Shown piece by piece: positions 2,105 through 47,165 of a stretch of 64,000 nucleotides of DNA. The position numbers and the translations under genes are program-made. The stretch's first letter is position 1. Every line of letters begins with the position of its first letter. Under the pieces are notes generated by a model, which saw only the letters and a program-made list of their open reading frames with translations, searched no databases and had not been told where the DNA came from. The DNA is from Chrysaora quinquecirrha (Eukaryota > Cnidaria > Scyphozoa > Semaeostomeae > Pelagiidae): NCBI GenBank assembly GCA_014526335.1, contig JACTAT010000108.1, positions 210,407 through 274,406 of the forward strand, read 5' to 3'.

Positions 2105-2879
2105 CAGTTCACTCACTGACAACTGCCGTAGCAGCAGGGAAAGCCGGACTGGCTGATTAGGTCCCTGGTCGCTGGTCAAGTGCGACTGTTACCGGCAGTA
2201 TATAACAACCCCCATATCGTCCATGTACTTGATCCCTAGAATCTTAGCGACAACCAAAGCTAATCCTTGCCTCTCATGGAGTGACTACTAATTCAGAGCA
2301 TTGGTTGGGGTCAATTTTTGGCATTTTATTTGGCGTTATGGTCGCATATTTGTGACTTCATGCTCGGCATCTAACTAGATTTAGTCCTCCTTTATTTCAT
2401 TATCACCCTATGCCCCACGTAGGTGCAGTTATAGTTCGACAAGAGTGAATTCTGTAAACAAAATGTTGTTATTTGTATATATATATTAGCTTATCGTTTT
2501 GTTCAGTTTGTATACTCACGTGAGGTAACTATACTCACTGAGAAATATGTTTACTTCAACGACGAGGAATCCCTAATCACTAGGAAAGTCTACTAGTGTG
2601 GAATCCCTTCGGTGTTGATATCATCAGATTGTTATGTTGCTTATATAATGGTTTTTCATTAATACGACCCCAATACCGCCACTGCCTTTGTCTTTTCTTC
2701 GTTGCATCTAGAGCCTTAATATTATTATCAGTTGGTAGGCAATGTCTAGCAACGCATTTACCAGGTGTCGTGAATAGTCTAGGTTCATTAATTGCTCCGG
2801 ATTGCCTTGTGGCCGCTGGGCGCTAATCTATATTCAGACAATAATCAAATACTTGGTGGCAGGTCAAGGCTATGGGTAA
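2105..2879. other. no gene seen
   Basis: Only short open frames of unconvincing composition. I see no RNA gene or repeat. Confidence 0.45.
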
Positions 2880-3035
2880 GATTCGATTAAGAAACCGATA
2901 TTGCTGTCGTCAAAGTGTCGTTATTCCGAGTTATTAATTCAAGATTGTCATGATAAGGTATTTGATAATGGCACACTAGATATGTCGAATTTTTTAAGGC
3001 AGCAATATTGGGTTCTCAGAGGGAGGGAAAGGTAG
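2880..3035 (+). pseudogene. Bel/Pao-type integrase zinc-binding fragment
   Basis: An open frame of about 51 codons reads from just after a TAA to a TAG at 3033-3035. It has the usual Pao/Bel integrase N-terminal pattern: a KKPILLSS-like start, ELLIQDCHDKVFDNG, then LRQQYWVLRGRER. The H of CHDKV and the YW..RGR block match the HHCC zinc-binding region of that family; the CxxC half is missing because the frame stops. Nothing downstream continues the integrase core. It is a small fossil of an LTR retrotransposon; the rest of the element is not seen nearby. Confidence 0.6.
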
Positions 3036-3807
3036 ATTAGAATGGCATTGTTACTATCAGAAACGAACAGGTCAAAGAAAGCTTTTGGTAGCGTAGTGCA
3101 GTTATTGACAGGAAGAGACAATCCAACAAGAGCAGCAAAAGTGGGGGTAGGCACAACCAAAAAAGTAAGTTTTCACTAGATCTTTGAACCATTTAGTACA
3201 CTTAGAAATTTGTAATAATACGCGGCAGCATGCAGCACCAGTCAAGCCGCAGCCGCAATCATTAGCACCGCAACAGTCGCCGCAAGCATCGCATTCGGCA
3301 GCATCCGCCGTAGCACAGCATGGGCACAGAGCCAGAAGGAATGCAGTGGTTATCGGAGAACTTCTGAGACAATGTAAGACTTAGAAAGCTGTAGTATTCA
3401 TTTTTTATTCTTCTTATTACCTTTAATATTTCCACGTTTTGTTGAGAAATGGACTCTTAGTGTGTAGCATTTAAACGTTTTATTGTTATTGCAATAGCGA
3501 AAGAAATATTTTCTATGTTAGCATTGCTTATGATGTAAGAAATTAATATTGTGAAACAGTGTCGTTTGATCAAACCGGGGAGTGTGTGGTTAAGTGTAGT
3601 AGCTCCTTATGTATTCAGGCCAAGGCCCCCTTCACACCACATGTTTGTAAAAAGCCTCACTGGGTGTGTGGTGTAAGAGATCAATGAAAAAGTATGAAAT
3701 GAAGTTGGAAGTAATCATGTCAAGTAAGCAAGCTTGATTATTTTGTGAATCGTTATTTCTGTAGTTTGTTAGTTATTATGTTATGAAAACTCACAGAAAG
3801 ATTTTTT
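3036..3807. other. no recognised gene; Gln/Ala/Pro-rich frame
   Basis: 3184-3384 (+) is an open frame rich in Gln, Ala, Pro and His (66 residues) and more GC-rich than its surroundings, but it matches no family I know. 3590-3680 contains GTGTGTGG and CACACCAC words that could pair. No gene is supported. Confidence 0.4.
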
Positions 3808-4215
3808 TTGCTTCCACCCCATTCACTACAACATCCTGGAACTGATAATGAGCTACAGTTGCATAACGATAAAATGGTTGAAGGAATGGATTTTCTGAAA
3901 CTTGAAGAAAGAAAATCATTATTGAATGGTTGTATTATGGGTAAGCAACACCGTACTCCATATCCTAAAGGGTTCTCTGTTAGTGTTAATGACACTGAAG
4001 CTCTTCAAATTATACACACTGATGTATGTGGTCCAATGAATGTTCCATCTCTAAGATAATCAGTTTATTTTCCTACCTTTATTGATGATTTATCCCGCTT
4101 TACACATACTTACTTCATGAGTCGAAAGTCTTAGAGAAATGCAAGGAATTTGTGAACATGACTAGCAAGGAACACTGCTAGTAAACAAATTAAGATATTG
4201 CGTTCTGAGGATCAT
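3808..4215 (+). pseudogene. Ty1/copia integrase fragment
   Basis: The frame to 4059 resembles the copia GAG-pre-integrase and start of the integrase core. It reads HNDKMVEGMDF, then NGCIMGKQHRTPYPKG, then IIHTDVCGPM, whose Asp is the first catalytic residue. A TAA at 4057-4059 interrupts it. Reading on in the same frame gives FIDDLSRFTHTYF, the next copia block with its conserved Asp pair. Further matches (CKEFVNM, LRSEDHG-like) appear in other frames up to about 4215. At least one stop and one or two frameshifts make it dead. No LTR, gag or RT is visible around it. Confidence 0.7.
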
Positions 4216-4814
4216 GGAGATTGCAGCGATAAAAATAATCGTTCAAGCCAGAGAGATTAAGTTGGGAGAGGAAACGCACACTGGTGCGTGTGAGCGATGT
4301 GTTATGCGCCTCCTCAGCAGTGCAGTGCGCTTTTGCTGTGTATCAAATCAGGAAAATGGCAAAGAACTGGCTGGCGAAGGACTTCCACTTGGATTGGATT
4401 TTCTCAAGGTGTGTATCATCCATATGTTTTTAGAAATAAACTTAATCTTGTATTGCTATTACATTCGTAAAATGGCGACCGGAGGCATTCTCGATATTCT
4501 CTGCTTATTTTTGATGTTTTCTTTCTCGTTCTCTGCTCGAAAGCAAGCTTTTGTTAGCACAAGCTGTGCTTACGAATCTACTTCCATCTTTGATGTTTTG
4601 AACGCAACAACTATGGAGGAAAGCCATGCTTATTCCACTCTTTGGTCTACAAATTTCATACACAAGAAGCTGAGTCCACATTAAGGCCTACAAATCATCT
4701 CCAGAAAACGATTCCTGTTGCTCTTATTGCTGATGGCTGGAGACACAGAAACTTGTCAAGGACCAGCCTCTTTTTGAAGATGTGAAGAAATTTATTTGTA
4801 GCAGGGGATTATAG
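4216..4814. other. no recognised gene
   Basis: A 156-codon plus-strand frame (4214-4684) opens here with an ATG but matches nothing known. Its C-terminal half is hydrophobic. I cannot support it as a gene. Confidence 0.35.
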
Positions 4815-5413
4815 ATATTTCATCAGAATGTAAGACGTTTGCACTGCCTCCAAGAAATTGAACAGTTGAGATCATTTATGGCTGAGACAAGAAAGGAGAT
4901 TCAAATTTTGGGTGTGACTGAGACGCATTTGAACTGCAATATCACTGATGAAGAAGTATCGATTCCGGGATACAGAATAGAACAAAAGGATAGAGCAAAA
5001 GGTTCAGGTGGAGGTGCAGCTATTTACATTCGTGATGATCTTCAGCCACAGACAAGACCTCGAATTCAATGGAATTGAATGTCTGTGGATTGAGTTAATG
5101 ATAAAAAAATCCAGACCACTCTTGCTTTACCCCAGATACCTCTAAACATCTCGATTCAGATTTAGAAGCCAAATTCGAGCAGACGTTAAATGTTGACCTC
5201 ACTGAAAGAAAAGAGGTTATTTTGGCAGGAGATATGAATTGCAATTATAACATAAAATCAGACAACAAAGCATTGAAGGATATTGTCCAAGTTAATGGTT
5301 TTAGTCAAGTCATAAAGGAATCAACAAGAGTGACCCAGGATACAAGTACTCTTGTAGATGTTATTTTGACAAATGATATCTCAAAAGTGCTGAAAAAATT
5401 GTTAAAAATGTAA
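4815..5413 (+). pseudogene. LINE (CR1/L2-like) endonuclease domain fragment
   Basis: Two frames together give most of an apurinic-like endonuclease (EEP) domain. The first (to 5078) has HQNVRRLHCLQEIEQL, then GVTETHLN with the catalytic Glu, then IPGYRIEQKDRAKGSGGGAA and YIRDDL. A shift follows. The second (about 5130-5413) has DTSKHLDSDLEAKFEQ, ILAGDMNCN with the catalytic Asp, and LVDVILTND. No reverse transcriptase follows. The 5' start lacks ORF1. It is a dead, truncated non-LTR retrotransposon ending about 80 bases before the next element's left end. Confidence 0.75.
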
Positions 5414-5492
5414 GGTAGGATAGGTACTTCTCGAATTTTGATGATTTTTGACCTCCGCAATCGATGCTATCCTTCTTCAAGTTTCAAGCTAG

Positions 5493-5603
5493 ACTTATTA
5501 CACGAGTCCCACTATTCGCAAACAGCAACAACAACAACAACAACTACCCTACAGCTGTTTGCTCAAAGTGGGACTCATAATCTTCAAGCAAAAAAAGTGG
5601 TCA
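5493..5603. repeat. left terminal inverted repeat with internal hairpin
   Basis: Matches the right end in inverse orientation. Inside it, GAGTCCCACT...GCAAACAGC (5504-5526) and GCTGTTTGC...AGTGGGACTC pair as a stem, 20 of 23 positions. The loop is a (AAC)n run that is absent from the right end. Hence 79 bases separate the two conserved blocks here against 56 on the right. Confidence 0.65.
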
Positions 5604-5769
5604 CGGCTCCAACTTTTTGGACTCCAATCAGATTGCAGATCGGAAAATTCCGCCAGTTTGATTGGTTAATCCATTTTTTCTTCAAAGAGAGGCATGTTTG
5701 AATTTTCTGTGATCTACGCGCATCTTTTTGGCGGGCTTTCCAGTTGTCAAGGTTGTTGTTTATTCTAAA

Positions 5770-8700
5770 ATGGAGGAAACTTTAATAGCAGCTGTGGAGA
5801 AAAGGCATGGAATCCGCTTCAAACCTTTTCAATGCAGCGTTTGTGAAAAAGTTTTCAAGCGGGAAGACATATGTGCACCAACTGGGTCTGGTTCATCACG
5901 TTGGTTGTTTCTCCGTTGTCAAGTTTAATGGTAGAGCAAGCAGAAAGACTAAATGAATTGGGCATACATGTCGGTGAATTGCAGAAAGATAAAGAAGAAA
6001 AGAGAAATGTTACAGCTGGCTGCTATGAACTCATTCTGATCACACCAGAATCAGCATTGGACTCAGAATGGCGTAAAGTTTTGAGTTCTGAGAACTATCG
6101 AAGTAAAATCAAGTTTGTTGTTGTCGATGAGGCACACTGTGTTTCCCATTGGTAAGTTAGTGATTACGGAGCAAGGTTGTCAGGCACGGTTAAAGTTTCA
6201 GATATAATCCTCACATACACATCTTTCAGGTTTGTTTGATAATTTCAATTCTAACAAAATTTAATATAAATATACAATTAACATTTATAGTAACTAAAAA
6301 CCCTTCAAATTAACATCTAAATACATAATATCATGCAGAATGCTAAAGGCAAAAAAGTTTAGGCCCTACCTACCCAATCTTTTAAACTCACAAATCAAAT
6401 CTGAGATGATATAGTAATATTTATTAACTATCTACACAGTTACTATTCAGTTTCTTATTTTGCCACCAAGCTCAAAAATCCTTCTGTTATTTCAGACCAA
6501 TCTAATTTCAAATGTTTTTAACTTAATTTTCAATCTTGAATTGTATAAAAAAAATAAACTTTTTAATACTAATGGTGAAATAGTTTGATAATTAAAATGA
6601 AATAAATACCTGTTGAGGAATAACAAAAATTCTAAACACTAATGTTTAATAAGAATACCCTTGCAAGAAATTATGGTAGCCTACATTTATAATTTGAAAA
6701 TCAAGACACACTACTGGAAGGATCGATCAAGTCTGATTTTGAGATTCTCTTTACTACAGCATTTTATTATTGGTGTTCACAGCTTTTCAAGCCAAATTGA
6801 AATTTGGCAGGAGAATACACTCTTTCTTATGAACAACTTATTTTTTGCATTTTACCCCAATCATTGCTTAGGTACTTATATGGAAAAATGCCCCAAACAT
6901 TTATTTAGTCAATCTCACACAGGGCAAGTTCAGATGGGGAATGGGGTAAGCTGATGTGGGGCAAATGGTTTGCTTTATAAGTATTTGATGTGAGTGAAGC
7001 ATTACAAGCTATAAGCATTTTGAGACAGTGACTCACTTTAAGCACTTAAGGGGTATCTTTCATTAAATTTATTTTATGACCATTTATTTGCCCCTGGCAA
7101 ATTGTTTAAATATTGTTTAAAATTTACGAAATTTTTGGGACGATTGTTTTAATTTTGCACTGTTTATAAAAAAAGAGTGTAATCCTATCTTAAATAATTT
7201 CAGGGAAAGTTTCTAAAGAAAATGATAATATTAAAATAATTATTTAAATTATTAACTTGTATAATAGAATAAGACTTTTAAAACAACCTTTAAATCTAAA
7301 AGGTTCGATGATATTCCTATTTATTCATTCTGTGTGATTTTTTCAATCTCTTGGGTTTTAGCTAATGTTTTTATGTTCTTCATGAGCCATTTTTGAGCTT
7401 TTTCCAGTTTACTTTTCTTGTTGCTTGGATATTGGAAAAGCTTTAATTATGAGCTCTGTTAGGGATGTTACTGAACAACTTTTCATCATTTAGTTCTTTG
7501 GCAAAGGCTGCAATTTCTTCTAAGTAATAATTTTCCTTGTGACGTCCAATGGCACTGAACTTTTCCAGTTGGATGTCAAAATTATTTTCAAATTCTTTTA
7601 GTATTTTGATGGATTTTCCAACTCTGTCAATAGTTTCCTGTGTCAATGCCCCATATCTTTGTCGAAGATCAGGCTTAACACAACCATTTGACAATTCAGG
7701 CGCATAATCAAGTGGAATGTTATTTCCTTCACCTCCATGTAGATTTACAGTTCTGTTATGTAAGAGTTGTGCAACTTTTCTTTCGCTAAGTAGAAATTCC
7801 ACTTGTGTGATAAAATGAAAACTCAACTGGGCATAAATGGTATGGCCAGTCGTAGCAAATGACAGGAAGTCATGTTTCCAAATCAAGTAAAGCCATTACC
7901 TGCTTTGCTTGCATTTTCTCTTGCCATATCTAAAAGGCCTTCCTTTAAGATCTTTCTGCTGTAATTTAAAACTCTATCCACTGACTTGATTGCAGCTTTA
8001 TCTTCTTCTTCATCAACACCAATGTCATCCAAATAAACCTCGTTATCTGCTTTCTGCTCTTCGTGCCTGGCAAACTCACACGATGCCATATGACGTCTTC
8101 TTGCTGCTGTATGGGATTTGAATATTTTCTTGCAGCCAGGATTTACACAAGGGTATGACTTTTTTTTGGACTTATCGTCATATTCTTCTTGAACGGAATC
8201 GTATATGATCTCAGGAATTTCCCTGTCAGGGAGTACATATTCTTTAGTGATTTTTCTTGCCAGTTTATCCAAGTATTCTTTTTTTGCCCCTTCGTCATTT
8301 TCGTCTGGAGTATCGGCAGGTTTGTCGTCTTTGTTTTTGATGTTGAGCGTCTCCATCGCCGCCAAAACCGTGTAGCCATAGGTTACGAAGTTAATAAATT
8401 CACGACAATCCTGCACTGCATCTTTTACCGATTTCTTGACATTTCTTCGGTCAAATCTTTCCTTCAGTTGGCATAGAGTGCCTTTCTCGGAAACTGAGTT
8501 GCCACAATATAGATCGTTGAATAGCATCTACAATAATGTAGAAAAAAAGTTTTATGTTCGAGATAACGAATGTTCGAGATAACCGGCAGCCGATATAGCG
8601 GATGTCAACTTTACTTACTTGCAAACATATAACAGCCTCATGCCAGTCTTCTGATTTCATTATCAAACCCTGGAGCTTTTTCAATTGATTTGGTGCATCA

Positions 8701-10629
8701 GCTCTGGCGTCTGGGCTTCCATTCCCCTCTTTGTTGACAATCCGTCGCCGCCACAGAGTATCTTCTCCACACAATCTTTGTCGATTGAAGGACAATATTG
8801 CTGAAAATGTTCCAGGATATAAATCATATCTTCAGTCTTCATTTCATTCTTTTGCAAGATACCAAGTGGAACCTGTAAGATAGTCGTGGAAAAATGCGAT
8901 TAATTGTTATTCAAATAGTTTCATTTAGATCTGAAAAATACAAAAGGCAAAGCAAATTTTTGAATAATATCAAAGGAAAGACATATCTACTTACAATGGT
9001 TGATTTTTGTGTCATTTCCTTTGCGAATTCGTTTTTGCTAGTTTGCAAGGTGCTGGTAACCATCTTTAAAATATTTCATCTGCTTACAGACTATATTCTT
9101 TATAAGTCCTTCCATCAATGATTGTAGCTTTTCATATTCGTTCTTTGAAAGAATAAACAATTCAGGTTTTGCCGCACTTATTGTGAAGTTGCGTTCTGCA
9201 TCTGACAAATGCTGAACATTGACACGATCTTTCACCGCCATTGCCTGTACCATGTTGTATCTTTCATTTTTGTTTTCTGATGTTTTTTGTCTTGCATGTC
9301 TTTGCAAATTGACGTTGTCAAAAATAATTTGAAATCCAGGCTGTTTTCTTTTGACCTGTTGAAAAATGTTAAGATCATCAGATTTGGTTACGCATGTAAA
9401 AGCATTTTCTGTGCGAATACGAGAGCCAATGTTTGTTTATTGCGGTTCATTTTAATTTTAGGGGAGACAACTTCAGGCCAAGTTACCATAAACTTGGGTA
9501 CTTGCGATCTTTTCTGTCTAAAGATGTTTGTTTTGTTGCGCTTACAGCAACTGCAACGCAGAAAGTCAAAGATCAGGTATGCCGGAGTCTAATTATGCAT
9601 AAACCGAGCACTATATATCTACCACCTGAAAATTACAATATATATTATGGAGTTCTTACTCTATCATCAAGAAGTTCTTATTTTCTTGACTGGCTGGTGG
9701 GAAGTCTGCGAAAAAACAAACAAGAATCCGTGAAAACAATTATTTACTGTCGTAACGTGGGCACTGTCTCGTCTATTTTTCAATATTTCAGCCATGCTCT
9801 TGGACCGTGTCAATTCTCTGACAGTAACACCTCTTTTAAAAACAGGTTATTTGCCATGTTTCACCGTGCAATGGATGAACTAAACAAGATGTATGTCCTT
9901 GATGAATTTAAAAAGACAGACTCTACTATCAGAGTTGTTATTGCCACAACGTCATTTGAAATGGGACTTGACTTCCCTGAGGTCTTGTTAATTGTAAACT
10001 TCTCTGTCCCAAGAAGCCTTGAGTCATTTGCCCAACAAAGTGGCAGAGGTGGAAGAAATATCAACCAGGCATACTCGTTGATAGTATGTTCTGGTAGAAT
10101 TGGAAAAAGCTCCACAACTGAGGAGATGAAAATGTACGCGGATAACACTGCCGTTTGCAAAAGAAAGATTCTTTCGGAGCATTTCAGTCTAAAAATCACA
10201 GCAAACGATGTTGCATTTGATCCTGGCTCCACCACACCAACAGGCTGTCGTTGCTGTGACGTTTGCAGGAAATCTTGCCAATGTGGCGATTGCTCGCCAC
10301 TTCCCTGGCAATCGGTGATAAATGCTATTCAACGCAGTGAAGAATTTGAAAGTCTGTGGTTAAGTGATCTTTTTGACCACCACTCATTCTCCTCTGAAAT
10401 GTCTGAGTTGCTTAAGGCTAGTTTAGGCGAATACAAGTCTGAAGTGTTCGAAGTAGATAATGGTAACGATCAAATTGCGATGAAACTCTGGGAGTCCATA
10501 GTTGATCAAGTGATGATTTCAGCTGATTTCATCTTCAGCGTTGACGATTTATTATTTGAGCTGCAACTGTCTGATGTTGCATTGGCAGAGGATTTGTTCG
10601 AAGTTATTGAGGATGTTAGAAATCGTTGA
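5770..10629 (+). CDS. RecQ-like SF2 DNA helicase, two exons (exon 1 damaged)
   Basis: A 3'-5' type superfamily-2 helicase presumably serving the transposon. Exon 1 (5770-6151) starts at ATG 5770 and has a CSVCEKVF zinc-like pair, a degraded motif I (APTGSGSS; the Walker Lys is replaced by Ser), and, after a frameshift or deletion near 5890, VSPLSSLMVEQ (motif Ia), ITPESAL and VVVDEAHCVSHW (motif II, DEAH). Exon 1 ends CATTG|GTAAGT. Exon 2 begins 9462 after TTTTAG and completes the Trp codon to give HWGDNFRPSYHKLG, as in RecQ proteins. It continues with LTATAT (III), IIYCRN (IV), VVIATTSFEMGLDFP (V), QQSGRGGR (VI) and a Cys cluster CRCCDVCRKSCQCGDC, to TGA at 10629. The 3.3-kb intron holds the end of the transposase gene on the other strand. 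The lost Lys and the frameshift suggest an inactive copy. Confidence 0.8.
6152..7442. other. helicase intron, part without genes
   Basis: AT-rich sequence between the helicase donor at 6152 and the end of the antisense transposase gene at 7443. The 97-codon frame 6661-6954 has no recognisable features. Confidence 0.6.
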
Positions 10630-33889: not shown

Positions 33890-35628
33890 ATTTGAGAAAT
33901 ATGAAAACCGAAATCATTGGTGATTCTGTTATAGAGGATATTAAAGGATACAAAATTAACCCTATTAGGTATGGGGGGGGGGGGCGTTTTTCGCCCCCCC
34001 TCCTACATTTGCTCAGATATCGTCTAGAAAAAGTCATCAGTATGGGTAGTAGGGTCTTGACTTTTCCTAAAATTTATCAAGGAAACTTGTGGTACAGGTG
34101 TTGGTATTACGGACTTGGTCACATGACCAGAAGATGCCCATATTTGGAAGCAAGTGTAGCGAATGATCCGTTAATTGGCTATATCTCTGTCAATATTTAT
34201 CGGATATGACTAAAACATGCATGGTTGGACTTCTCTTGGTGAGAGCTATCGTTTGATGTATCATGTGAATGATTTTGCAATTGTCAGCAGATTTTGTAAC
34301 TTGTCACGTGATCATTTTGTTAATTGAAGTTAATTAGCCTAATTAGCAAATTTTTTCATTAATTGGATGTAATCATACAGGACCCACTGTTAACTAATAC
34401 TTCTAAACGTTTTTGATGAAATTAAGGCTAGTTATTGGACTTTTTCAAAATGCTGAGTAAGCAAAAAATTTGTTCCTTCGCATTCAGGCATATCATTACT
34501 AATTAAAAATAGTAATTGGTCAGAAAATAGCTGAAATGAATGTAAAAGTTTACTATCTGTGGAAATTTGAAGGTTTTGAGTGTCTTTTACCTATTTCAGG
34601 GTGATTGAGCTTGATTTTCGGCAGCCTAGCTGAAATTGCGATAATTTCACACTTTCAACAGTTGCCAAGCAACGTGTCACGTGACTAATTAATAAACAAT
34701 AGTCTTAATTAACTGCAATTAGGTACTTGTACATGTCTACGAAGTTTCATCTCGATCAGACAAACAGGTGCTGAGATAACTAGGGGGGGGGGCGAAGAAC
34801 GCCCCCCCATACCTGAAAAGCAAAAAAATAGCCCATACCGAATAGGGTTAAGGAAGCAGCAAGACATCAGCAACAAATATTTGTAAAGTCATTCAGTGGA
34901 GCAACGATTGACTGCATGAATAGTCATGCTTACCCAACTATCAAAAGAAATCCTAAAAAAATAATTATACACTGTGGAAAAAATGACGTAAGGGGCCAAA
35001 CACCTGCAGAAAACATTGGGACTGAAGTTATTGAGCTGGCGAAATCATTGCAAAAAAAGGTAATGCTGTTTTTGTCAGTGGTCTAGTTGTTAAACGCCAA
35101 TACCAAGAAAAAATTTAAATTTATTGACAATTCAAACATTAATTCTAATCATCTAAACTGAGTCAAATTCACATTAACCCTGAGGGCACAAGAGTCTTAG
35201 CAAACAATTTCTTACGTGCATTAGGGTATTTTTGACAAAATATTCCAAATAGGGTTTTAAATACTCAGAGTGTTCCCAACATTTCTGATTCTGATCAGTT
35301 ATCAATTGACAAAAAAAGGTTACAGGTCGAGTTCCATTAGATGTTTCCTATGAAACTTGCTTGTTGGATCGCTCTCTGAATCCAACCTAGGAAATCTGTC
35401 AGAGTCTGAAGTTGACTCTTTATTAGCAACGCTATCCAATGATTTTGAATCCACTATATTGTCAATTGCTGACGACACCCCGAATTTCAATGGCGCTAAG
35501 GCTGAATTAAATAAACTGAAATCAAGAAAAGTTGGTCATATTACTGTTGGTTGTTTATCTGAATATCAATTCAAACAGGAATAAATTTGTTGCATTAAAG
35601 GAAGTTGGCAAAATATTGATATTTTAAT
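33890..35628 (+). pseudogene. LINE ORF1 with SGNH/GDSL-esterase-like domain (interrupted)
   Basis: 33892-33955 encodes KTEIIGDSVIEDIKGYK, the GDS block of SGNH hydrolases as found in ORF1 of some CR1-type LINEs. After the TTAA-flanked insertion the frame resumes at 34852 with FVKSFSGATIDCMNSHAYPT and KIIIHCGKNDVRGQTP (GxND block). It continues, shifted, with INPEGTRVLANNFLRALGYF, near the catalytic His. A degenerate ORF1 tail follows. Near 35545 the next reading (LNINSNRNKFVALKEVGK) is the start of the endonuclease, broken at 35628 by the P-type element. The role of the esterase in retrotransposition is not settled in the literature I know. Confidence 0.7.
33960..34847. mobile_element. 888-bp TTAA-flanked MITE
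   Basis: Begins CCCTATTAGGTATGGG and ends, reverse-complemented, CCCTATTCGGTATGGG, with TTAA on both sides (33956-33959 and 34848-34851). Inside both ends are G/C runs that fold back: GGGGGGCG...CGCCCCCCC at 33973-34007 and again near 34784-34808. There is no transposase. TTAA targets with CCC-starting ends suggest piggyBac-like mobilisation; Kolobok-like is the alternative. It interrupts the SGNH ORF1 between codons that read through once it is removed. Confidence 0.8.
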
Positions 35629-36190
35629 CACAGGTTACAGCGTATGCTTGAAGAAATAATGCAAATGCAAATAATGTTATATACAACTTTCTTTCTCTTT
35701 CTTATCGCTTGTTCTCTCTGTTATGATGTTCCTCCTGTCTCCTTGCTCCTTCCACTAAAATACTAGGCCAATCAGTCGACCCAATCCCCAACAAACGGAA
35801 AGGAGAAAAAGAGAAAGGTCGGCTGGTCCACACCAACTGTGGAGGCCACTTGGAACTTTTCCTGTCCAGCTTGCGGCTTGTGAGCATTCAACCCTTCAAC
35901 AAAGCCCACCAATACATGGCTCAACAACCCCTCTTCATCTTCAAATAGCCAAATCATACCCAAGCTACGGGCAAACCCGAAATCAGCCTCTTTTGCTGCG
36001 GCCACTCGACCTTCTGTTGAATCTCCAGACGATGGAGGAAAGGCAAGGGTCTTCTCGATGACGTAATTCGCATACTGCGCTTGCGCAACCGAAGGATGGA
36101 AACGAGACGCGCTTTCAAAACAGGGGGTTTCATGACCAAAAATAAGCACTGGATAGAAAAGTTATCAAAGGCGGGAAATTTGATCCTGTA
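35629..36190. repeat. left 562-bp terminal inverted repeat of the P-type element
   Basis: Pairs with 44868-45429. Differences seen: A/G near 35830, G/A near 36057, G/C near 36147. It is GC-richer than the surroundings and holds a 125-codon open frame reading outward (36149 to 35772) that is also present in the other repeat. I regard that frame as incidental unless a homologue is found. Confidence 0.9.
36059..36088. promoter_or_regulatory. CRE-like and NRF1-like sites in the terminal repeat
   Basis: TGACGTAA (36059-36066) resembles a CREB/ATF half-palindrome. TGCGCTTGCGCA (36076-36087) is one base off the NRF1 palindrome. Both are repeated in the right terminal repeat, upstream of the transposase on one side and of the helicase on the other. 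A promoter role is inference. Confidence 0.4.
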
Positions 36191-36216
36191 TTATAAATTT
36201 ATTCTTTCCAATCTCG

Positions 36217-39200
36217 ATGGACATGGAGGAAATTGATGACGATGTAGTAAAGCTTCAGGATCTTTTTTTCATCAAGCAGTGGTAAGTCCATTCATTTCAT
36301 CCATTTTTAGATCGATTGCTAGGTAGCATGAGAGTACGCATGCAAAAGTTTGAGCTCACGAGTTCAGTAGGCCCAGTGAGGCCAATTTGATGTGAAACTG
36401 AAGTAAATTAAAAAGTGATAAGCTATAATGTTACGAGTAACGATCTTCATCAAGAATTCATTGCTGCAACTAAATTTTATTATTTTATATCCTAATTTTT
36501 CATTCATACACCATGTATTTGTCTTAAATAAATAAATAATATTAAAGAAACTCAACTATTTGACTGTCACCAAAAAGGCCAAAAGTGCTGTACTGGAAAA
36601 TATTACTGAAGAAACATTATTAACAAGTATCATAATAGATAAAATTGTTAATTTTCTATTTCTTTCAGGCTATTGAGGAACTATATCGTAGAAAATGGAG
36701 CAGAAACTGGGATGGAGCAAATTTTAGAAAATTTTAAGCAAAATAAAGAAAACAGTCAATGCAGTATAGTGCCAAGCCCAAGAAGAATTGGAATTGAGTT
36801 GCAAGAGGTTTTTGGTAGTGAGATTGCTTCATTGAGACAAGTTGAAGGCAAAAGGAAGATACGGGTTTATAAGAATCTTTTATGCAAGCCATTTGTACCA
36901 ACTAACATTTCAAAAGATACTCTAAGCATCTATGGTTGGATTTTGCAAAATAGCTGTGCAGATGAGAGCAACCTTTCTTTCAGCAAAGTTACAAACATTT
37001 TCATTGATAAGAATCGCTACACGCTTGATTTAAAAATTGATCTTTTCAGGAAGACCTTGGTTGTACATGGCACAAATTTGATTGCTGTTAATGAGCAAGA
37101 CCTTGGCATTCCAAACTCAGAAATTCATTACAACAATGTGTCTTTTTTGCTGTACTTTTTGAGCAGATTACAACTTTGTTTTGGTTTCAAGCAAGGGCTG
37201 AAAGAAGAGAGGGTTGTCCGAACGGAAAATGACAGCATATGTCTCAATTTGTCAATTAGTGGGCCCTGTATAAAATCATCCAATGTAATCGCGAAAAAAT
37301 GCAAAGTATTTGTTTGGATAGGAAAATCTATGACACAGGGGAACTATTGTTGTGAATGCTCTTTGGTAAAGAAACGTTTGCAACACAGGAAAACAGAATA
37401 TTTATCAATAAAGAGCACAAAGAATTGCCTTTTGGGAAGAGATGAACTTCAAACTAAAATAGCTCTTTTGGAGAAAGAAAAGAGAAATGCAAATAAAAGA
37501 GTTGGATACTGGAAGGATAAGTTTGCCTCTGAGAGCGTTCAACTTGAAAGAAGTGATGATGAAGATCTACAAACCATATTCGATACAGTAGATAGGTCAA
37601 AAGCACCAGAAGGATTTGCATTGCTAATATCCCAACAGAAGAAAGCACTTGTTGCAAAAGGACCATCAGGAAGGAGATGGCATTTAAAGTAATAATTTTT
37701 TTCAGAAGCATCTAATTCTTTCTTGATTTTATATCTTTTCAACCATTTGTTCAATGCTGAAATAAGAATGAAAAAATTGTCTGTTGAGGAAAAATAGCTA
37801 TGAAATATGCATAAGAAGAGTCTGCAAGTAAGATTGATCTGATTATATATATTTTTTATCTCTAATTAGTAGGATTTTGTATCCCAGTAAGTCTATCTAT
37901 TTGCCTTCAGAATCATAAAGCTCTGCATTGACCTGTATGCATCATCACCAAAGGCTTATGACACTTTGAAAAAGCACTTAGTCCTTCCAAGCAAGAGGAC
38001 AGTCAGGTATGTGGTATCAGATAGCTTTGAAATTTCTTAGAGGAAAACGTAGCTGTGATACTGTCAGAGTTGGAGAGGGAGAGTTAGAACTTGATAAATC
38101 ATATGCTAAGTTCCAGGAGTTAATAAATGGGCAGAATTTGGTATTTAAATCCTAGTCCCATCCATGATCTCAATTAATGCCCAAATCTCCTCATATTTCA
38201 AACATGCCTGCAATTCTGGTCAGACAGGCAACAACTGCTTCCATGGATTTCATTGAATGGAACTGTCTTCATATCAACTCTTTGGATGTTTATATTTCAT
38301 GATGTGAATGACTTGACTTGTTAAACAGTTCATTGTTCAACCCTTTTCTGTTTACAGAGTTTACAAAAATGGTATTGAACCCAGTTCAGGTTGGAATCCA
38401 GAAGTTTTTGACTGGTTAAGGAGAGAGGGTAATCGCCTGAATTTGAATGAGGAAGATAGATGGGGTGGACTAATGTTTGATGAGGTTACAATACAGGTAA
38501 GTGATTCTATTATATCATTTATATACAGAAATGAATGACTGCTTGAACATTCTTAAGAATTCTTGAGAATTCTTGTCATGTGCATTTGCGCAAGGCCTGT
38601 ACTGTAATTGCATGCTGGTGTGGCACTGATAAAAGTACCATGTCAAATTGTCCAAGTTCAGCTCCAATCATGTTATTATGTTTCATTATCTTGACAATGA
38701 CAGTTTTACATATTTTCTTTCAACTATAAATGTTGTGTTGTTTATTTCATTTTTTCTCCAGGAAGATGTGGCTTACATTAAGTCTGGTTCGTTATTCAAA
38801 CTTGTAGGATTTGTAAACTTGGGAAGATCTTATGAAAACATAAATGTTCTGACCACTGGTAATATTCTAAGTTTCTTATATGCCATATGGACTGATAAAT
38901 TTTCACAAATATAAACCCAATATTATGTAATTTTTAATTATTTATAACTCCTGCAATTTTCAGCCATTTCTTTTGTATTTTGTTATTTCTCTTTTTCCTG
39001 AAACATCGTCAAAATTGTGGAATAAAATGGAGATATGGCCCTTGGTGTGTTATGTTGGAGAAATGCATGGATCCAATTGAATTTATATATCTTTATCATA
39101 AAACTGCCAGGTTTTTAAACACATACTTATTGACCTTTATTCTATATTGCACAAGGTAAAGATGAGATGGTACTTGCAAAAAAAGTAGTACAGTTTGCAC

Positions 39201-40856
39201 TGGTAACAGACAGTGGCTTCAGATTTGCCCTTGCGCACTTTGCCATCGGTAGTATGCCTGCTATAACTCTTGGTGAGAAGATATGGGAGGGTATTGAATG
39301 GATAATGAGAGCAGGATTTAGGTAAGGAGTCATTATCATTACGAAAACACGAAGTACACTTATACCGCAAAAAAACCAGAAAAACGAAAAACATGGACGG
39401 AATTATATGCCAGGCTGATTATTTGCTGTAGGAATTGAGAAAAATTACACACATTGAATTGAAAACAATAACTTTTATTTCATTACCAGGACTTACTGGT
39501 TGCTGTGTGATGGAGGGGAACCAAACCGCTCATTCATTAACATGTGCATCGAGAATCCTGATGAAGATAGGTTTGTCACCTATAACATCATGACAGGAGG
39601 ACCATTAGTTATCATGGTTGATTGTAAGGTATCTATCAATCATTAGGTATTTCAAAGGATGTTTAATTATTCTACAGTATCCTACATTATATCTACCATC
39701 TATTACCAGCAATACTATTTCTGTTTCTAGAATTGATTTCAGGAGAAAGACTTACTTATTTCTTAATAGATACGGAACAATGTGTAATAAGCACCTCTCT
39801 TTTGTAGCATAACTTTAAAAAGATACGCAATAACCTATTAAAGAGCTCATCGAGTGGGAAGACACCCAGACATCTGAAGGTCAATGGAAAAAGCATTTTA
39901 TTCCATCATTGGGTATCTGCCTTCAAATGGGATCAGTCGACTCACACAATGAAGCTTCATCCAAAGTTGACAAACAACCATTTCGAGCTTGATGCACGAT
40001 CAAAATGCGCAACAGTCTTGCGAAGATGTGCTTGATGGCAATATGCTGTATCTTATGGAGGTGAGTAAATTTGTAACCGATAACATGCTGAGAAAGAAAT
40101 TTGCTTCTTCGTTGTTGAAAATAGTTCCATTTCCTGAACCAAACGTTTGTACCAAAACTTCAGTGTTAAATTACACATTCCAACTTGACATCTGGTTTTG
40201 AAGGAAATTTTTCTACCCCAACTCTTGATAGATATGACAGCTCCCTCACAGACAAACAAATTAACTAAACTAATAAACTAACAGTGAATAACTTCTACCA
40301 GAAATAGTCTTTTTTCTTCGACAGGAATACCAAAAACATCTTGCTTCTGTTAATGGGAATCCCGACCAGTTGAACGAAACAGTAAATTTGCTGAAGCACA
40401 CAGCGCTTGATTTCTTTGTTCAATTGCACAAGGCATATTCTTGGAGCTGATGACGAGAGGATCTGCAAAGCCAAAGAATTTTTGGATTATTTACGAGAAT
40501 GGAAGAGCTCTTGTGAAGATGGGAAAAGCTTCTTCTCGCATCAACTGTGGCTTGATCTCAGATCAATGATATATGGACTTGAGCAAATGGTTGTAATAAA
40601 GAAGCGAAATTTCCCTTCTTGTGTTATCAAGCCGATCATAATCAATCAAGATGTCCTTGAGAATGTATTTTGCCAAATTCGTGGCTTTAATGCACACAAT
40701 GATCACCCTAACTATGGTCTTTACATGAGTACAATTAACACAGTTAATATAACCCAGTCCTCTGTAAGTAAAAAAGGAAACACAGGAGGGTCATCAGATA
40801 TGCCGAATGCTGAGCTACCAAACCCGCATCCATTCAAGAAGATGAAGACAATCTGA
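36217..40856 (+). CDS. P-element-type transposase, nine exons
   Basis: Exons: 36217-36281, 36669-37688, 37911-38006, 38358-38496, 38762-38858, 39156-39321, 39490-39628, 39808-40060, 40325-40856. All have GT donors and AG acceptors with matching phases. Motifs of the P superfamily: LCIDLYASSPKAYDTLKKHL; GWNPEVFDWLRRE; GLMFDEVTIQ (first Asp) and YIKSGSLFKLVGFVNLG; CDGGEPNRSF; VIMVDCKHNFKKIRNNLLKS (second Asp); HHWVSAFKWDQ and KLTNNHFELDARSKMR. The C-terminal VLENVFCQIRGFNAHNDHPN carries the Glu. There is no THAP domain at the N-terminus, which opens MDMEEIDDDVVKLQDLFF. Three single-base indels (near 39996, 40020 and 40405) break the last two exons; the young terminal repeats make sequence error as likely as decay. 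Confidence 0.8.
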
Positions 40857-41253
40857 CTCTTTGAATACTGAATTATACCGGCTGCGCCAAAAAAGTTCAC
40901 AAGTGCTAGATTACAGCTAGCTTCATGAAATCAAAGTTATCGAAATATGCTTTAATATAATATAATAAATTTAAGATCGTACATTTCTCGTTCAAAATGA
41001 AATTGTGTAAAGATTTAAGGTATATAGACAGAGATAAGATAGATGCGGCTTAAACTGACGGAGTAGCATCTTGATACAGACCGTACATGCCTTACCTAAG
41101 TACGCACTCTTCTGATTCGAATGCATATTCGTCCGTTTTCGTGCTGTTCATTGTTATTTACGATTTGTAAATCATCCAGGTAATAAGAATACATAAATTC
41201 GTTCGTGCCTTTCAAAACGGGCAATAGTAGGTTCGCTATATCGATCTTCCTCT

Positions 41254-42640
41254 TCACATTGGTAGGTATGGGCACATTAGATGCAGCACAGAGTCGTCAG
41301 ATTTCGGTACCTTATACACAGTCCAAAGAAAGGCATCACCAAACTTGAAGACCATTCCTTTTAACTTAGCATGTGAAACCTCCTTGTTTGGGGAAAGATC
41401 CTTCCCCATTTCCTCCATTTCAAGTTTTGCCTTTTTCCTTTCACTCTTTTCAGTCCGCATGAGAACCATGTGTCGATGGGCCATTGTTTTCTTCAAGAGG
41501 TAGCAACGTTTGAAGTCCTTTAGTACTTCTTTAGCGCCAACTCTGATGTACAGATCCAATCCGCTGTTGAATAGCTCACCTATTGGTATCTATAAAAAAA
41601 CAAGAAATCTAGCATGAGCTATATCCCAGCCTGTCTAAGCTACCCGAAAGGAGTTTTGAAGAAAGACATGAGATTTTGCCTTTATGAATTTCCAAGACAA
41701 CTTTTGTCAATTTACTGAACCTTTCATCAAATAGAAATGAGTAAAAATATCATTTCATCTACAACCTTCTGTAGAGAAGCTAAAAGGTCTATCGTTGGGT
41801 TAAACGATTAAATAGGAAATAATATTTACCCTTTCCACCTCTGCATCATGACTATCATTGTTCACCTGAAACAATTTAAAGAACTCTTCGCGTAGTTTGA
41901 ATTCTTGATCTTCTATCATTTCGTGCTTTATTTGAAAAAGAAACTTTTCTCCTACATCTTTGTATTTGGTGATTTTTAGATGCTTCACCCTCGCTTGCTC
42001 TAATTTCAGCATGAATTCATAAAACTCATCGGATATGTGCAATAAACCCGGGTAACAAACTGTCTTCTTTCTGTGTAATCTAGCGTGTGATGATATTTAG
42101 TGGTTTCGACCTTTTCATATGGTACAACTAATTGTTCCTTTAAAAGCTCTACTTTCTTCATTGAAACTTGCACACGCTCTGCAACATTTGGCTGTTGTGA
42201 ATAAACGTTATCATGCACATATCTTTTTGAATGATCAAGTAAATGATGTACTACGTATCCACCTAAGAAGCGAATCTTCGCAAGTCCTGCATTATCCATA
42301 TCTGAAACTTGTAAGTCCCGTATTGCTGCTTCCTGCATCTTCTGTCTGACAGAGGTGGCAACGATTTCTAAAATCTGATGATATATTCTTATTGCAAGAT
42401 CACTGCAGAAGCAAATATCTTCTTCTTGAAGCGAATTCTTGTTACTATCACTTGAAAGAGCAATGATTAGCAACGAGCGCACATCCTCATCACGTGTAAT
42501 AAACCATACCTTTGTGGTAACATCCTTCAAGAATCTCATCGTCATTGTTGTGTCACTCACTTGATCCTTGATGTGTGTCTTTAGCCAACAGAATATCTTT
42601 CTCCAAATAATTTTGATGAACAGTTCTGTTTTTGCATTTG
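41254..42640 (-). CDS. uncharacterised protein of the P-type element
   Basis: At least four exon-like pieces: 42625-42560 (ending CAA|GTGAGT), 42520-42060, 42040-41812 (ending GAAAG|GTAAAT) and 41590-41254 (after TTTTATAG). Readable segments: ICFCSDLAIRIYHQILEIVA, AGLAKIRFLGGYVVHHLLDH, then MSFMNSCDEFYEFMLKLEQA in two frames, VGEKFLFQIKHEMIEDQEF, ELFNSGLDLYIRVGAKEVLK and KKTMAHRHMVLMRTEKSERK. It is mostly helical and basic, with no catalytic motif I recognise. Cnidarian and mollusc genomes contain similar proteins, by my recollection. It lies just downstream of the helicase on the same strand and could be its C-terminal part or a separate gene. One frameshift near 42030. Confidence 0.5.
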
Positions 42641-42689
42641 ACTAAGGGCAATTTCAATGACCCTATTCTTATTTTAAAGCAAGAGAATC

Positions 42690-44779
42690 ACACATTATTG
42701 ATTTGTCTATCATTTCTGTTAGCAGCACATCAAAATCAAAGTTGGGCGGTGGTGCAGCAAGGTCTTCTTCTGCATCTTCTAAACCTTCCAAGACAATTTC
42801 AAGATGAAGAACTTTGTCATCTTCAGTCAGCGGACGTTCTCTCTTGTAAACTCCTCTCTTACATCTCCATAAGCAGCAATTTCTTCATCGAAATTTGCTC
42901 GTTGTTTGGTTTGGTACCTCCATTCTGTCGACTTTCGAAAATTTGACTTCATTACGACAGCATGACAGGTCGTCTTCGAATTCCCTAAAACATAAATTGC
43001 TCATTTCTCGCAGTTCTATGTCTCGATCCTTCAAATGACTCTTGGAGAAGCTAAGTAGCTGGGCATCTTTGCCACTTCGCACTCTGGAAAGGGCAACGTA
43101 CAACATTCCACCAGTGAACTCATGCTGAGAATGGATTCTAACCTTCGCCAGCTGGGAGCCCTGTGCCTTGTGTACTGTAGAGGCCCAGCTAAGCTTTAAC
43201 GGTATTTGACTCCTATACCCCGTTAGGATGCCGTTATTATCTTTGCTTGTCCAGCGCCATTTCTCCAAACGAAACTTACCACCATTCACTTCTACCACAG
43301 CTGTGGCATTGTCTGGTTTGGCCAGAAATTTGCAGGACGTTCCGTTATGTAAATGCTGATTGATGTTGGCAAGACACATCATAGGAGCATTCACCTTGGT
43401 GACAACCCTTTTTGGAATTATGGACTGATTTTCACGCACAGTCCCTTCATCTTGACAATCGTAATTGATTATACTACCTTCAAACACACGCAGCCTGCAT
43501 GCATTTTGAAAGGCTTCTTCAAGCCTAGTAAAACAAATCTCAGTTATCTCCTCATTGCCAGACACTTCCGGAGATTGACACAGAACATCTTGAATGTATG
43601 AAAAGCTTTTATCTGAGCATTTTCCCAGTCTGAAATCATTGAGCACGTCTATCAGCCCGTCATCCTCATTCTGTCTATAGATTGTCTCCAGCTCAATGGA
43701 ATGACACAAAATTTCACGAAATAGTGGTGTATTATACATCTTCGCATTTTCTTTTGTGACATACAGGTTATCAGGAACTGGAGGAAGTTGTAACCAGTCC
43801 CCTATGAGGATGAATTGCACCCCACCAAATGGGAGCTTCTTCTTTCTGGCCATAGAGCAGATGGAATGGATGATTTCTAGGTCTCTCCAACTATTCATAC
43901 TAAATTCATCCCACAGTACAACATCAACATTTGAAAGTTTTGATGAACATCTTGGAAGTGCATCATGAACTACTTTCTCAAAGGGTCTGTCAGGGATGCC
44001 AATACCAAAAAAATTATTCAGTACTAATGCATTTGACAGAGGCCACTTCTCAGCCTTGTATACTTCACAAGCAATGCCTGTAGAGCATACCAGTTGAATT
44101 TGCTTTCCAGCAGCAAGAAGTGAATGCATTATTTGTTTCTTAACAAATGACTTTCCCGTGCCTGCCTTGCCAGTGATAAGGAAATTGTGGCCCTGTAAAG
44201 CTTTGTTGATGCATTGTGCTTGTCTTTCAGATAAAAGTACCTGTTAATAATAGGAAATGTTTTAATTTTTCATCATGATCATATTTTTTTGCAATTATTA
44301 CCAATAACTACGAGGGGGGACTTGCTGCCAACATGTTTTGACCCATGACCCTTCCCAGAAACGAGCTACAATGGTATATTTCAAAATAGATTTAACAATA
44401 TTCCTAGATTGTATGAACACTAAAATTTAAAACGGATGTAATACTATGTACAAGGAAATTTGCGAGAAAATTTACCCTGCTAGAACTAGACATTCTTGTT
44501 CCGATAAACAGGGGGGGGGGAGGTACTACGAAGGGAGAATGACCAATATTTCACAAGGGAAGGGAGAACTCTGAAAAGGAGAAGGGAGAAAGTGTAAAAG
44601 AATTTGTGGGAGAAACTGTAATATTTTGAAAAGGAGAAATCATCTAATTTTGAAGGGAGATTTGGACCCCTGTTCCACCCCCCTGAATAAAAGCAGAGAG
44701 GGAGACTCCCCTTCGGTATCCTAGCCCCAATTTCTCCAACAGCCCAGAGTGTAAAAATTTAGTTTAAACTTACCGTCAT
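42690..44779 (-). CDS. PIF1-family helicase carried by the P-type element
   Basis: Superfamily-1B 5'-3' helicase. Exon 1 supplies only ATG ACG (44779-44774), then GTAAGT. Exon 2 begins 44240 after TTAACAG and continues in phase: VLLSERQAQCINKALQGHNF, LITGKAGTGKSF (Walker A), VCSTGIAC, DVVLWDEFSM (Walker B), FILIGDWLQLPPV (GD.xQLPPV), ELETIYRQ, and TVHKAQGSQL plus GMLYVALSRVRS (motifs V-VI). All catalytic motifs are intact over about 440 codons. A shift near 42900 is followed by an acidic tail (EEIAAYGDVREEF ... EGLEDAEEDLAAPPPNF). It shares the element's right terminal repeat as likely promoter. In Helitrons the PIF1-like domain is fused to a Rep nuclease; no Rep motif is seen here. Confidence 0.8.
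44241..44773. other. helicase intron with poly-G and A/G-rich tract
   Basis: Contains a run of ten G at about 44511-44520 followed by repeated AAGGGAGA words to about 44670. No coding. Confidence 0.6.
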
Positions 44780-44867
44780 GTTTAAACTTTACTCAGGCTT
44801 TCTGATGAAATCTTCATCTTTGTCAATCAATTCAGGCCATATCGAACTTCCAACTGAGCATATGAAG

Positions 44868-45429
44868 TACAGGATCAAATTTCCCGCCTTTGATAACTTT
44901 TCTATCGAGTGCTTATTTTTGGTCATGAAACCCCCTGTTTTGAAAGCGCGTCTCGTTTCCATCCTTCGGTTGCGCAAGCGCAGTATGCGAATTACGTCAT
45001 TGAGAAGACCCTTGCCTTTCCTCCATCGTCTGGAGATTCAACAGAAGGTCGAGTGGCCGCAGCAAAAGAGGCTGATTTCGGGTTTGCCCGTAGCTTGGGT
45101 ATGATTTGGCTATTTGAAGATGAAGAGGGGTTGTTGAGCCATGTATTGGTGGGCTTTGTTGAAGGGTTGAATGCTCACAAGCCGCAAGCTGGACAGGAAA
45201 AGTTCCAAGTGGCCTCCACAGTTGGCGTGGACCAGCCGACCTTTCTCTTTTTCTCCTTTCCGTTTGTTGGGGATTGGGTCGACTGATTGGCCTAGTATTT
45301 TAGTGGAAGGAGCAAGGAGACAGGAGGAACATCATAACAGAGAGAACAAGCGATAAGAAAGAGAAAGAAAGTTGTATATAACATTATTTGCATTTGCATT
45401 ATTTCTTCAAGCATACGCTGTAACCTGTG
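44868..45429. repeat. right 562-bp terminal inverted repeat of the P-type element
   Basis: Inverse of 35629-36190. See that entry for the differences. The helicase start codon lies 90 bases inside it. Confidence 0.9.
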
Positions 45430-45436
45430 TTTTAAT

Positions 45437-47165
45437 AGCCGCAGAAACGAAAATTGAAAACTCTTTTCCGAAGAATCTATTTTTCGTTCAAGGGTACGCT
45501 GAGCCACTGTGGCTAGATGGAAACGCTCAAGGTCTTTTGATATACGTTAGAAATGATATCCCAACAGGTGAGTTGAATTCCTTCAGATTTATGATGATAT
45601 AAACTTCTTATGTTTTGAAATCAATTTAGGGGTAAAAAATGGGCACTTTTAGCATCTACCAACCCACCGTTACAGTAACAATCATTACAGTGAAAAGTAT
45701 GACAAGCATCTGTTTGTAAGTGACTTTAATACAGAGGAGTCAGATCTTATGGTCCATAATTTTATGAATGGGTATCGACTTAGAAATTTAGTGAATGAGT
45801 CAGCTTGTTTCAAAGCAGATAATCTTAAGTGTATTGATATTATTTTAATAAACAAATATAGGCGCTTCCAAGATACCACCACAATCAAGACAGGAGTTTC
45901 TGATTTCCAAAAATAGGTTATTACAGTTCTGAAAACAACATACGAAAAACCTGGACCAATTATTGAAATTATAAGAATTTTTCTGAAGAAACTTTTGAAC
46001 AGCATCTTTGTGAAAAGCTGCAACAATCAAATCAATGGACCTGAATTATGATTCATTTCAAAATTGTTTCAAAGAAGTTTTAAATCAACATGCCCATATG
46101 AAAAAGACATATGCAAGGGCAAATGATTGTCCCTTCATGAATCAGACCCTTCGTAAAGCTGTCATGATGTGTTCAAGGTTAAAGAATAAATTTAATAAAA
46201 GTCGCACAGCCCCAAATTTGGAGGTGTTTTGCCAACAGCCCAACTTGCGTGTAAAATGATTTAGGACTGAGAAAAGAAATTTTTATATATTTCTCAAATC
46301 ACAGATAATGAAATTTTCTGGAAAAACGTGAAACCTTTTATTTCTGATAAAAACAAAGCAAATGAAAAAATTACTCTGATCAAAGAGGAAAAAATATTAT
46401 CAAGACAAAGAAGTAGCTGAAACTCTAAATTGCTACGTTGTGAACATTACTGACGCACTTGGTCTTAAAGAAAATCAAGACATCATCTCTAGCACAAAAG
46501 GTGTCTCAGATCCTATTGATAAAGCTGTGATTAAATATTCCAACCATCCCAGCATGAGAAAAATTCAGTCTTGCTCTAATTGAAAACAAGTTCCAATTTG
46601 ATAAAGTCTCTGTTGAAGAAATAAAAATGGAAATTAGTAGACTTTGAAATTTTATAAGGTAGCTCTGAGATTTGTGCATGCCATTAAAGACTTTACTGAT
46701 GGTGTTAAAAGCTTTTTTTTCCCAGGTGAGCTTAAATCTGCAGATGTTACATCACTTAATAAATCTGGGGCCAAAACTTCCAAGGAAATATATAGACCTG
46801 TAAGTGTACTTCCAACTGTTTCTAAGATTATTGAAAGAATTATGGATAGGTAGATAGTAGAATAGATAACCCCATTTATATAGATTATATAGAAACTTTG
46901 TGGTTTTCGCAAAAGTTTTAATACACAACATGCCTTGACCCGTATGCTTGAAAATTGGAAAGTTAGTTTAGACAATGGGGAAACATTGGTGCAATCTTAA
47001 TGGATCTCTTGAAAGTGTTCCGCAAAACTAACTGACCTCCTTTTGGCGAAACTAGACACTTACGGCTTTAGTTGTGAAGCTTTATCTCTTATTGATAACT
47101 TTCTAGAGGGCAGGCAACAAAGGGTAAAAATCAATGGATCTTTCAGTACCTTTACAAAACTTGAG
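45437..47165 (+). pseudogene. LINE endonuclease/reverse transcriptase, continuation after the P-type insertion
   Basis: Continues the LINE of 33.9-35.6 kb. The endonuclease resumes with AAETKIENSFPKNLFF and GLLIYVRNDIP, then, shifted, CIDIILINKYRRFQDTTTI and TGVSDFQK. The RT region has HMKKTYARANDCPFMNQTLR, RPVSVLPTVSKIIERIMD (fingers) and LLAKLDTYGFSCEALSLIDN, then FLEGRQQRVKING. Many stops and small indels. The YxDD-bearing part is missing: sequence ends at a satellite-like block at 47.17 kb, and a detached GVPVGSVLGKILFNFYINDF piece appears at 49.3 kb. Confidence 0.75.

Follow-up and report, generated by a model that had tools for sequence, protein, structure and literature searches.

Sequence evidence for a P-superfamily transposon that carries its own PIF1-family helicase gene in Chrysaora quinquecirrha

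The 64,000-nucleotide stretch of Chrysaora quinquecirrha DNA analyzed here (contig JACTAT010000108.1, positions 210,407 to 274,406 of the forward strand; hereafter the window) contains, at 35629-45429, an element of 9801 bp with two convergent genes: a P-superfamily transposase and a PIF1 helicase. Judged from sequence, the element is a P-superfamily DNA transposon with two genes, and the helicase belongs to it. This assignment, put forward in the original prediction, is supported because a full copy with both genes is present elsewhere in the genome and because two more families carry the same convergent pair, making three in all. The helicase probably contributes to the spread of these elements. 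We favor, with somewhat better than even confidence, a reading in which it aids repair of the donor-site gap by copy-back of the element.

The two 562-bp terminal inverted repeats, described in the original prediction as near-identical, differ by 3 mismatches and no gaps, and the TTTTAAT duplication reported with them is present at either end and is 7 bp long. Rejoining the flanks with a single TTTTAAT gives an uninterrupted frame, SWQNIDILIAAETKIENSFPKNLFF, that spans the junction, and the ends of the element are exact for this reason. Read by eye, the junction frame looks like the endonuclease domain of a long interspersed nuclear element (LINE). The segments 35400-35628 and 45430-45660 seem to derive from a decayed, older retrotransposon of the type lacking long terminal repeats (non-LTR), which apparently hosts the element and supplies the endonuclease-like read-through. 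A plasmid search with the terminal repeat gave no match. Each long inverted repeat lies directly upstream of one gene, with the transposase reading inward from the left and the helicase inward from the right. The positions anticipated for the two start codons are borne out: the left repeat ends at 36190, 26 bases before the transposase start, and the helicase ATG, read from sequence at 44779, is approximately 90 bases interior to the right repeat.

When the left repeat was searched against the same genome (328 Mb), 17 matches were obtained; six of them are full-length and represent three copies. Copy C268 matches the window element at 99.2% identity over its positions 1-9801, contains both genes between the same ends, and occupies a different site with the duplication AACAAAC; this is the second full copy that the original prediction suggested seeking. 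The third member of this family (family 1), C508 (404400-414613; duplication GAGTAAT), has lost its left end, such that both of its ends are the helicase end. Read along its length, it carries the element in reverse from position 9801 to 1983 and then positions 7428-9801 a second time in inverted orientation, the two parts meeting at a 16-bp repeat. Of the transposase gene only a part is kept, as C508 lacks exon 1 and most of exon 2. Elsewhere, a minisatellite-like, GGTGGT-rich array at C508:726900-728900 is flanked on each side by diverged pieces of the repeat ends of family 1, and relics at C111 and C424 match the 5' portion of the helicase gene of family 1 at 82-91% identity, with no outer-repeat match within the 3.2 kb examined.

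Two other families share this organization. Family 2, represented by C192, is 11.5 kb long, with repeats of ~975 bp at 99.7% identity and the duplication GGAATAC. Its helicase frame is open over 833 residues, its matched DNA outside the repeats is 66-85% identical to that of family 1, and the proteins P0003 and P0243 match it by sequence. Family 3 (C259, C534 and C246) is ~10.4 kb long, with repeats of ~1160-1170 bp at 98.9-99.6% identity, duplications CCTAAGC, TCGAAAT and TTCTGCG, respectively, and a helicase core ~55% identical to that of the window. The helicase is broken in C534 and C246, and C246 is also broken in transposase exon 2. All seven copies share the start CACAGGT and a 7-bp duplication, and all except C508 (6 of 7) retain the convergent layout over both genes. 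Two deletion derivatives of family 2 were also recovered: C290 (99.4-99.7% identical), from which most of both genes is gone, and C348 (97.8-99.6% identical), which keeps ~230 helicase-core codons and shows no match to the transposase over the 3.7 kb examined. Both are foldback-like, with long inverted ends. A copy with intact flanks and a full transposase that simply lacks the helicase would have told against the helicase as part of the element; none was found among the copies reached via the repeat or the helicase, a route that helicase-free copies with diverged ends could escape. Nested insertion of the helicase, the other alternative raised at the outset, was rejected: a repeat scan of the window element around the helicase detected no inverted repeats of at least 25 bp, and the gene pair is conserved in all three families.

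Comparison of families 1 and 2 bears on whether the genes are in use. The proportions of nonsynonymous and synonymous differences (pN and pS), measured with synonymous sites close to saturation, are 0.158 and 0.714 for the helicase core, 0.191 and 0.743 for its C-terminal part, and 0.266 and 0.697 for transposase exon 2. Amino acid identity between the two families is higher in the helicase core (71.5%) than in transposase exon 2 (55.9%). From these values, both the helicase and the transposase look to be kept by purifying selection between families.

The association of the two genes extends beyond the seven copies. A search of the genome for the helicase gave at least 98 matches, with 93 of 257 candidates scored, and long transposase-side flanks were read at 12 loci: the seven copies, C155, C213, C282, C272 and C102. 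P transposase sequence lies beside the helicase in 11 of the 12, or in 11 of 13 if C348 is counted. C213 and C282 were chosen for a nearby P-transposase match and are hence biased, and C192 was found by its repeat; among loci picked on the helicase alone (C259, C534, C246, C155, C272 and C102), five of six have the transposase. The helicases of C155 (a distant relative picked for its long frame), C213 and C282 face P transposase sequence, and six 8-kb control stretches of the window contain no P transposase match. The helicase loci C272 and C102 are decayed, at 45-46% identity. Among the places listed in a co-localization of the helicase with the transposase domain PF21787, at least four pairs lie within 20 kb of each other, and 4 of 4 are convergent, as against 0.34 convergent pairs expected by chance. 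This comparison is insensitive, since introns split the domain, and families 1-3 and C155 are missing among its 150 rows. Search matches also place convergent pairs at C442:1859399-1879166 and C272:137753-151968, 18 and 13 kb apart. A narrower scan of 1.5-kb flanks at 25 helicase loci found transposase matches at C508 and C272 only; it is powerless, as the proven pairs C246, C534, C259, C155 and C213 are also blank.

The transposase gene (Table 1) comprises nine exons separated by GT-AG introns, with exons 1-7 open over 574 residues. These seven exons match the Pfam model TNP-like_RNaseH_N (PF21787) at 44.5 bits (cut-off 24.6). Matches to other models of this class fall under their Pfam cut-offs: the P-element helix-turn-helix model; PF21789 (20.4 in the window and 19.5 in C259, each against 24); and the GTP-binding insertion domain PF21788 (15.8 bits against 24.8 in the C213 exon, and no match in the C155 exon). 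The catalytic D, D and E are found in all six copies examined (the window, C268, C192, C259, C534 and C246). A protein search, restricted to candidates of 0.55-1.75 times the query length, gave 9 relatives at E<=0.001, with identities from 99 to 26%. The nine exons and three acidic positions of the original prediction are retained, with the correction that exons 8-9 of the window copy contain three frame breaks.

The N-terminal region of the transposase has no THAP match, either in window exons 1-7 (E<=1) or in exon 2 of C259 and C155 (E<=0.05), and the single match in the window to a THAP regular expression falls within a terminal repeat. In C155, the N-terminal exon (5130-6317, minus strand) has a weak RFX-like winged-helix match of 19.4 bits (cut-off 27). 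A profile of exon 2 gave two PDB matches, with no RFX chain among them. An RFX-like winged helix is possibly present at the transposase N-terminus, perhaps replacing THAP, and we note it as a lead.

The helicase core (42885-44243, minus strand) matches the PIF1 model at 81 bits, is open, and contains the motifs listed in the original prediction (GKAGTGKS, WDEFS, GDWLQLPPV, HKAQGSQL and ALSRV). The gene does not end there. The uninterrupted relatives P0003 and P0006 have a further domain after the PIF1 core; the window encodes this domain down to 41806 on the minus strand, and a last exon, extending to about 41096 and ending in a short basic segment, is similar to the tails of P0140, P0142 and P0194. 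Part of this tail appears SAP-like by eye; a Pfam scan of the last helicase exon of C259 gave no match. The C-terminal helical domain likewise bears no Pfam name. Long relatives of 834-1002 residues carry names from Paramuricea, Oculina and Mytilus. In the structure model of P0142 (mean predicted local distance difference test score, pLDDT, 74), a PIF1 core is followed by an all-helical C-terminal region that is mostly confident. VIA-align rows of the structure comparison span residues 1-314 of this model, corresponding to the helicase core, and Foldseek matches in a viral structure library are mostly named helicases. By domain and by fold, the protein belongs to the PIF1 family. The original prediction of intact PIF1 motifs holds for the core; the full gene carries about six frame breaks beyond it.

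Table 1. Features of the transposon, in window coordinates
Feature	Position	Strand	Basis
Left target site duplication TTTTAAT	35622..35628	.	flank sequence
Left terminal inverted repeat, 562 bp, starts CACAGGTTACAG	35629..36190	+	repeat comparison
Transposase exon 1; start codon 26 bases past left repeat	36217..36281	+	splice model
Transposase exon 2, N-terminal region, without THAP match	36669..37688	+	splice model, Pfam scan
Transposase exon 3	37911..38006	+	splice model
Transposase exon 4, first catalytic D (FDEVTIQ)	38358..38496	+	splice model, motif
Transposase exon 5	38762..38858	+	splice model
Transposase exon 6	39156..39321	+	splice model
Transposase exon 7, second catalytic D (CDGGEPNR)	39490..39628	+	splice model, motif
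Transposase exon 8 (HNFKKIRNN), 2 frame breaks in window copy	39808..40060	+	splice model, copy comparison
Transposase exon 9, catalytic E (LENVFCQIRG), 1 frame break in window copy	40325..40856	+	splice model, copy comparison
Last helicase exon: conserved segment, SAP-like stretch, RIRR tail; 1 frame break	41096..41590	-	ends read from sequence, tails of P0140/P0142
Helicase linker and C-terminal helical domain (..KIRFLGGYVVH..GLLHISDEFYEF..), frame breaks in window copy	41806..42880	-	relatives
PIF1 helicase core, open frame	42885..44240	-	frame, PIF1 match
Helicase exon 1 (Met-Thr), donor GTAAGT	44774..44779	-	proposed from sequence
Right terminal inverted repeat, 562 bp	44868..45429	-	repeat comparison
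Right target site duplication TTTTAAT	45430..45436	.	flank sequence

The breaks in the window copy were located by comparison with relatives and other copies, and are compatible with true mutations or assembly indels alike. C268 is open at most of these sites, with one helicase break common to both copies, and its transposase has two private breaks, one in exon 2 and the other towards the end of exon 9. The C508 helicase frame is open for 774 residues, with a break close to its end.

The origin of the helicase was addressed with a tree of 35 helicases, drawn with a midpoint root and without C213 and C282. A fully supported branch separates 23 rows (the element helicases, C155, C390, and proteins of Paramuricea, Oculina, Mytilus and Ostrea) from 12. 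The latter side comprises human PIF1, two Helitrons, two near-identical pieces, five rows that are bacterial or unnamed, and two other helicases of the present genome, C290:2082802 and C442:1877976. The comparison with Helitrons and PIF1 called for in the original prediction therefore parts the element helicases from the Helitrons and from human PIF1. The helicase at C442:1877976, which falls on the Helitron side, has a convergent P-transposase match 18 kb off; given this locus, the pairing may not be bound to the helicase tree. Helitrons that combine Helitron_like_N (PF14214) and PIF1 in one frame occur in the same genome, at C347 and C442. Helitron_like_N was not detected in the window helicase core or in the C192 helicase, and a Helitron origin was rejected on this absence together with the separate side of the tree. 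Part of the searches of viral and prokaryotic collections yielded no helicase relative; the others yielded helicases 24-31% identical (68 viral loci, and the best 80 of 163 prokaryotic ones).

Relative to described P elements (Drosophila P, zebrafish Pdre2/THAP9 and Anopheles P), the window element shares a PF21787 match over the cut-off, the D-D-E residues, internally deleted derivatives, and repeats that begin with CA, as in the CATACC... of Pdre2. It differs in several other respects. The sources cited here for Drosophila, zebrafish and Anopheles give duplications of 8 bp and repeats of 13-31 bp (PMC7776569, PMC10983969, PMC1562414), and describe an N-terminal THAP domain in known P proteins (PMC1562414); in contrast, duplications in the present lineage are 7 bp in every copy with both flanks read (7 of 7), its repeats span 562 to ~1170 bp, it has no THAP match, it is 10-11 kb long, and its second gene is a PIF1 helicase. 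On these sequence characters it is called a helicase-bearing lineage of the P superfamily, and not a canonical P element, because it combines a P-type transposase with 7-bp duplications.

Helicases are already known from Kolobok and Academ transposons, and AcademH and KolobokH resemble the window element as DDE DNA transposons carrying a helicase (PMC9587614, PMC10045372). In Kolobok-1_CCri, the helicase is likewise encoded on the complementary strand (PMC9587614). These elements appear to differ in transposase superfamily, the transposase of the window element matching a P-type model over its cut-off, and the KolobokH helicase is RecQ-type; for AcademH the comparison is by description. With Helitrons the window element shares a PIF1-family helicase. 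Unlike theirs, this helicase is a separate gene with no Helitron_like_N (Rep) fusion and occupies a different part of the tree; inverted repeats and a target duplication further set the element apart from them. Cnidarian and bivalve proteins annotated 'PIF1-like', from Paramuricea, Oculina and Mytilus and also from Dendronephthya and Ostrea, are further relatives: those of Paramuricea, Oculina and Mytilus have both PIF1 core and C-terminal domain in common in an alignment, and cores from Ostrea and Mytilus fall in the same wider tree group as the element helicases. In Hydra, a 'PIF1-like' family is described as having grown to 204 and 130 copies next to transposases (PMC7642931); these could be the same elements or others. 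No report of a P element with a helicase was found in the titles and abstract openings of the open-access literature, a search that lies outside Repbase and subscription papers.

If the helicase assists copy-back repair, the cycle would involve: expression of both genes from the terminal repeats, which would act as their promoters; excision of the element by the transposase and insertion with a 7-bp stagger; action of the helicase, which presumably unwinds DNA in the 5'-3' direction as other enzymes of the PIF1 family do, on the donor gap; and helicase-driven D-loop extension across ~10 kb, with the sister chromatid as the template from which the element is restored. In this way, a transposon of the cut-and-paste type would gain a copy per jump, and rearranged and internally deleted copies would represent aborted repair. 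Breaks left by P excision are reported to be repaired via homologous recombination or end joining (PMC7776569), and Drosophila PIF1 is described as required for efficient repair of P-induced gaps if POL32 is absent (PMC8951532). The inverted second helicase end and 16-bp junction repeat of C508, as well as the C290 and C348 deletions, look like such aborted products; the form of C508 is that expected from interrupted gap repair plus end joining. A broader version, which we hold only tentatively and at rather less than even weight, is that this is an ancient animal P lineage with its own break-repair engine, in which PIF1 and the lineage-specific C-terminal domain ensure copy-back and a processivity independent of the host.

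The copy-back reading must be weighed against several observations. The window, C268 and C508 copies are all broken, such that current activity of family 1 is not supported by their sequences. Among the helicase loci, no P transposase turned up over the 8 kb read at the decayed C102, and the P transposase pieces at C272 are rearranged. In the insensitive co-localization described above, 141 of 145 listed PF21787 places lack a listed helicase partner at a distance of 20 kb or less; P-type transposases in general therefore need no helicase partner, and most of those listed apparently lie outside the helicase-bearing lineage. Drosophila P elements, which have no such helicase, are also described as yielding internal deletions (PMC7776569). 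Finally, a role in disassembly of the transpososome or in integration at replication forks would give identical sequence evidence.

The last of these points corresponds to the strongest rival: that the helicase acts in transposition itself, either by disassembling the transpososome after strand transfer or by steering the element to replication forks. We regard this as unlikely but not negligible. The predicted C-terminal helical domain of the P0142 model and the SAP-like tail could bind transposase or DNA in such a step, and purified P transposase works without a helicase, which we count against it. Duplication length may also be relevant, being 7 bp here and 8 bp in the P elements described from Drosophila, zebrafish and Anopheles; among Academ lineages, those with different accessory enzymes are reported to differ in duplication length (PMC10045372). 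It is quite improbable that the helicase is instead a long-kept gene for regulation or host manipulation, acting for example against silencing or replication stress, with no direct part in transposition or repair. In its favor, conservation of the helicase speaks for use and not for a particular kind of use; against it, the chemistry of PIF1 enzymes and the recurrence of the helicase next to P transposases suggest DNA transactions of the element. It is hardly credible that the helicase is a chance passenger, whether as a nested Helitron, as a PIF1 gene captured from the host or through an error of the assembly: PIF1-bearing Helitrons do exist in this genome, but the pair recurs in three families over several contigs, with apparent purifying selection, no inverted repeats of at least 25 bp inside the element, and a fully supported branch setting the helicase apart from those of Helitrons and human PIF1.

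With this lineage, the P superfamily becomes the third, after Academ and Kolobok, of the DDE transposon superfamilies that acquired a helicase, and its members may account for part of the genes that carry a 'PIF1-like' annotation in the genomes of cnidarians and bivalves. The gain of copies by cut-and-paste elements is usually credited to gap repair by the host. A PIF1 helicase borne by the element makes this step testable from the element side, and the P-excision gap offers a ready assay for it in the fly.

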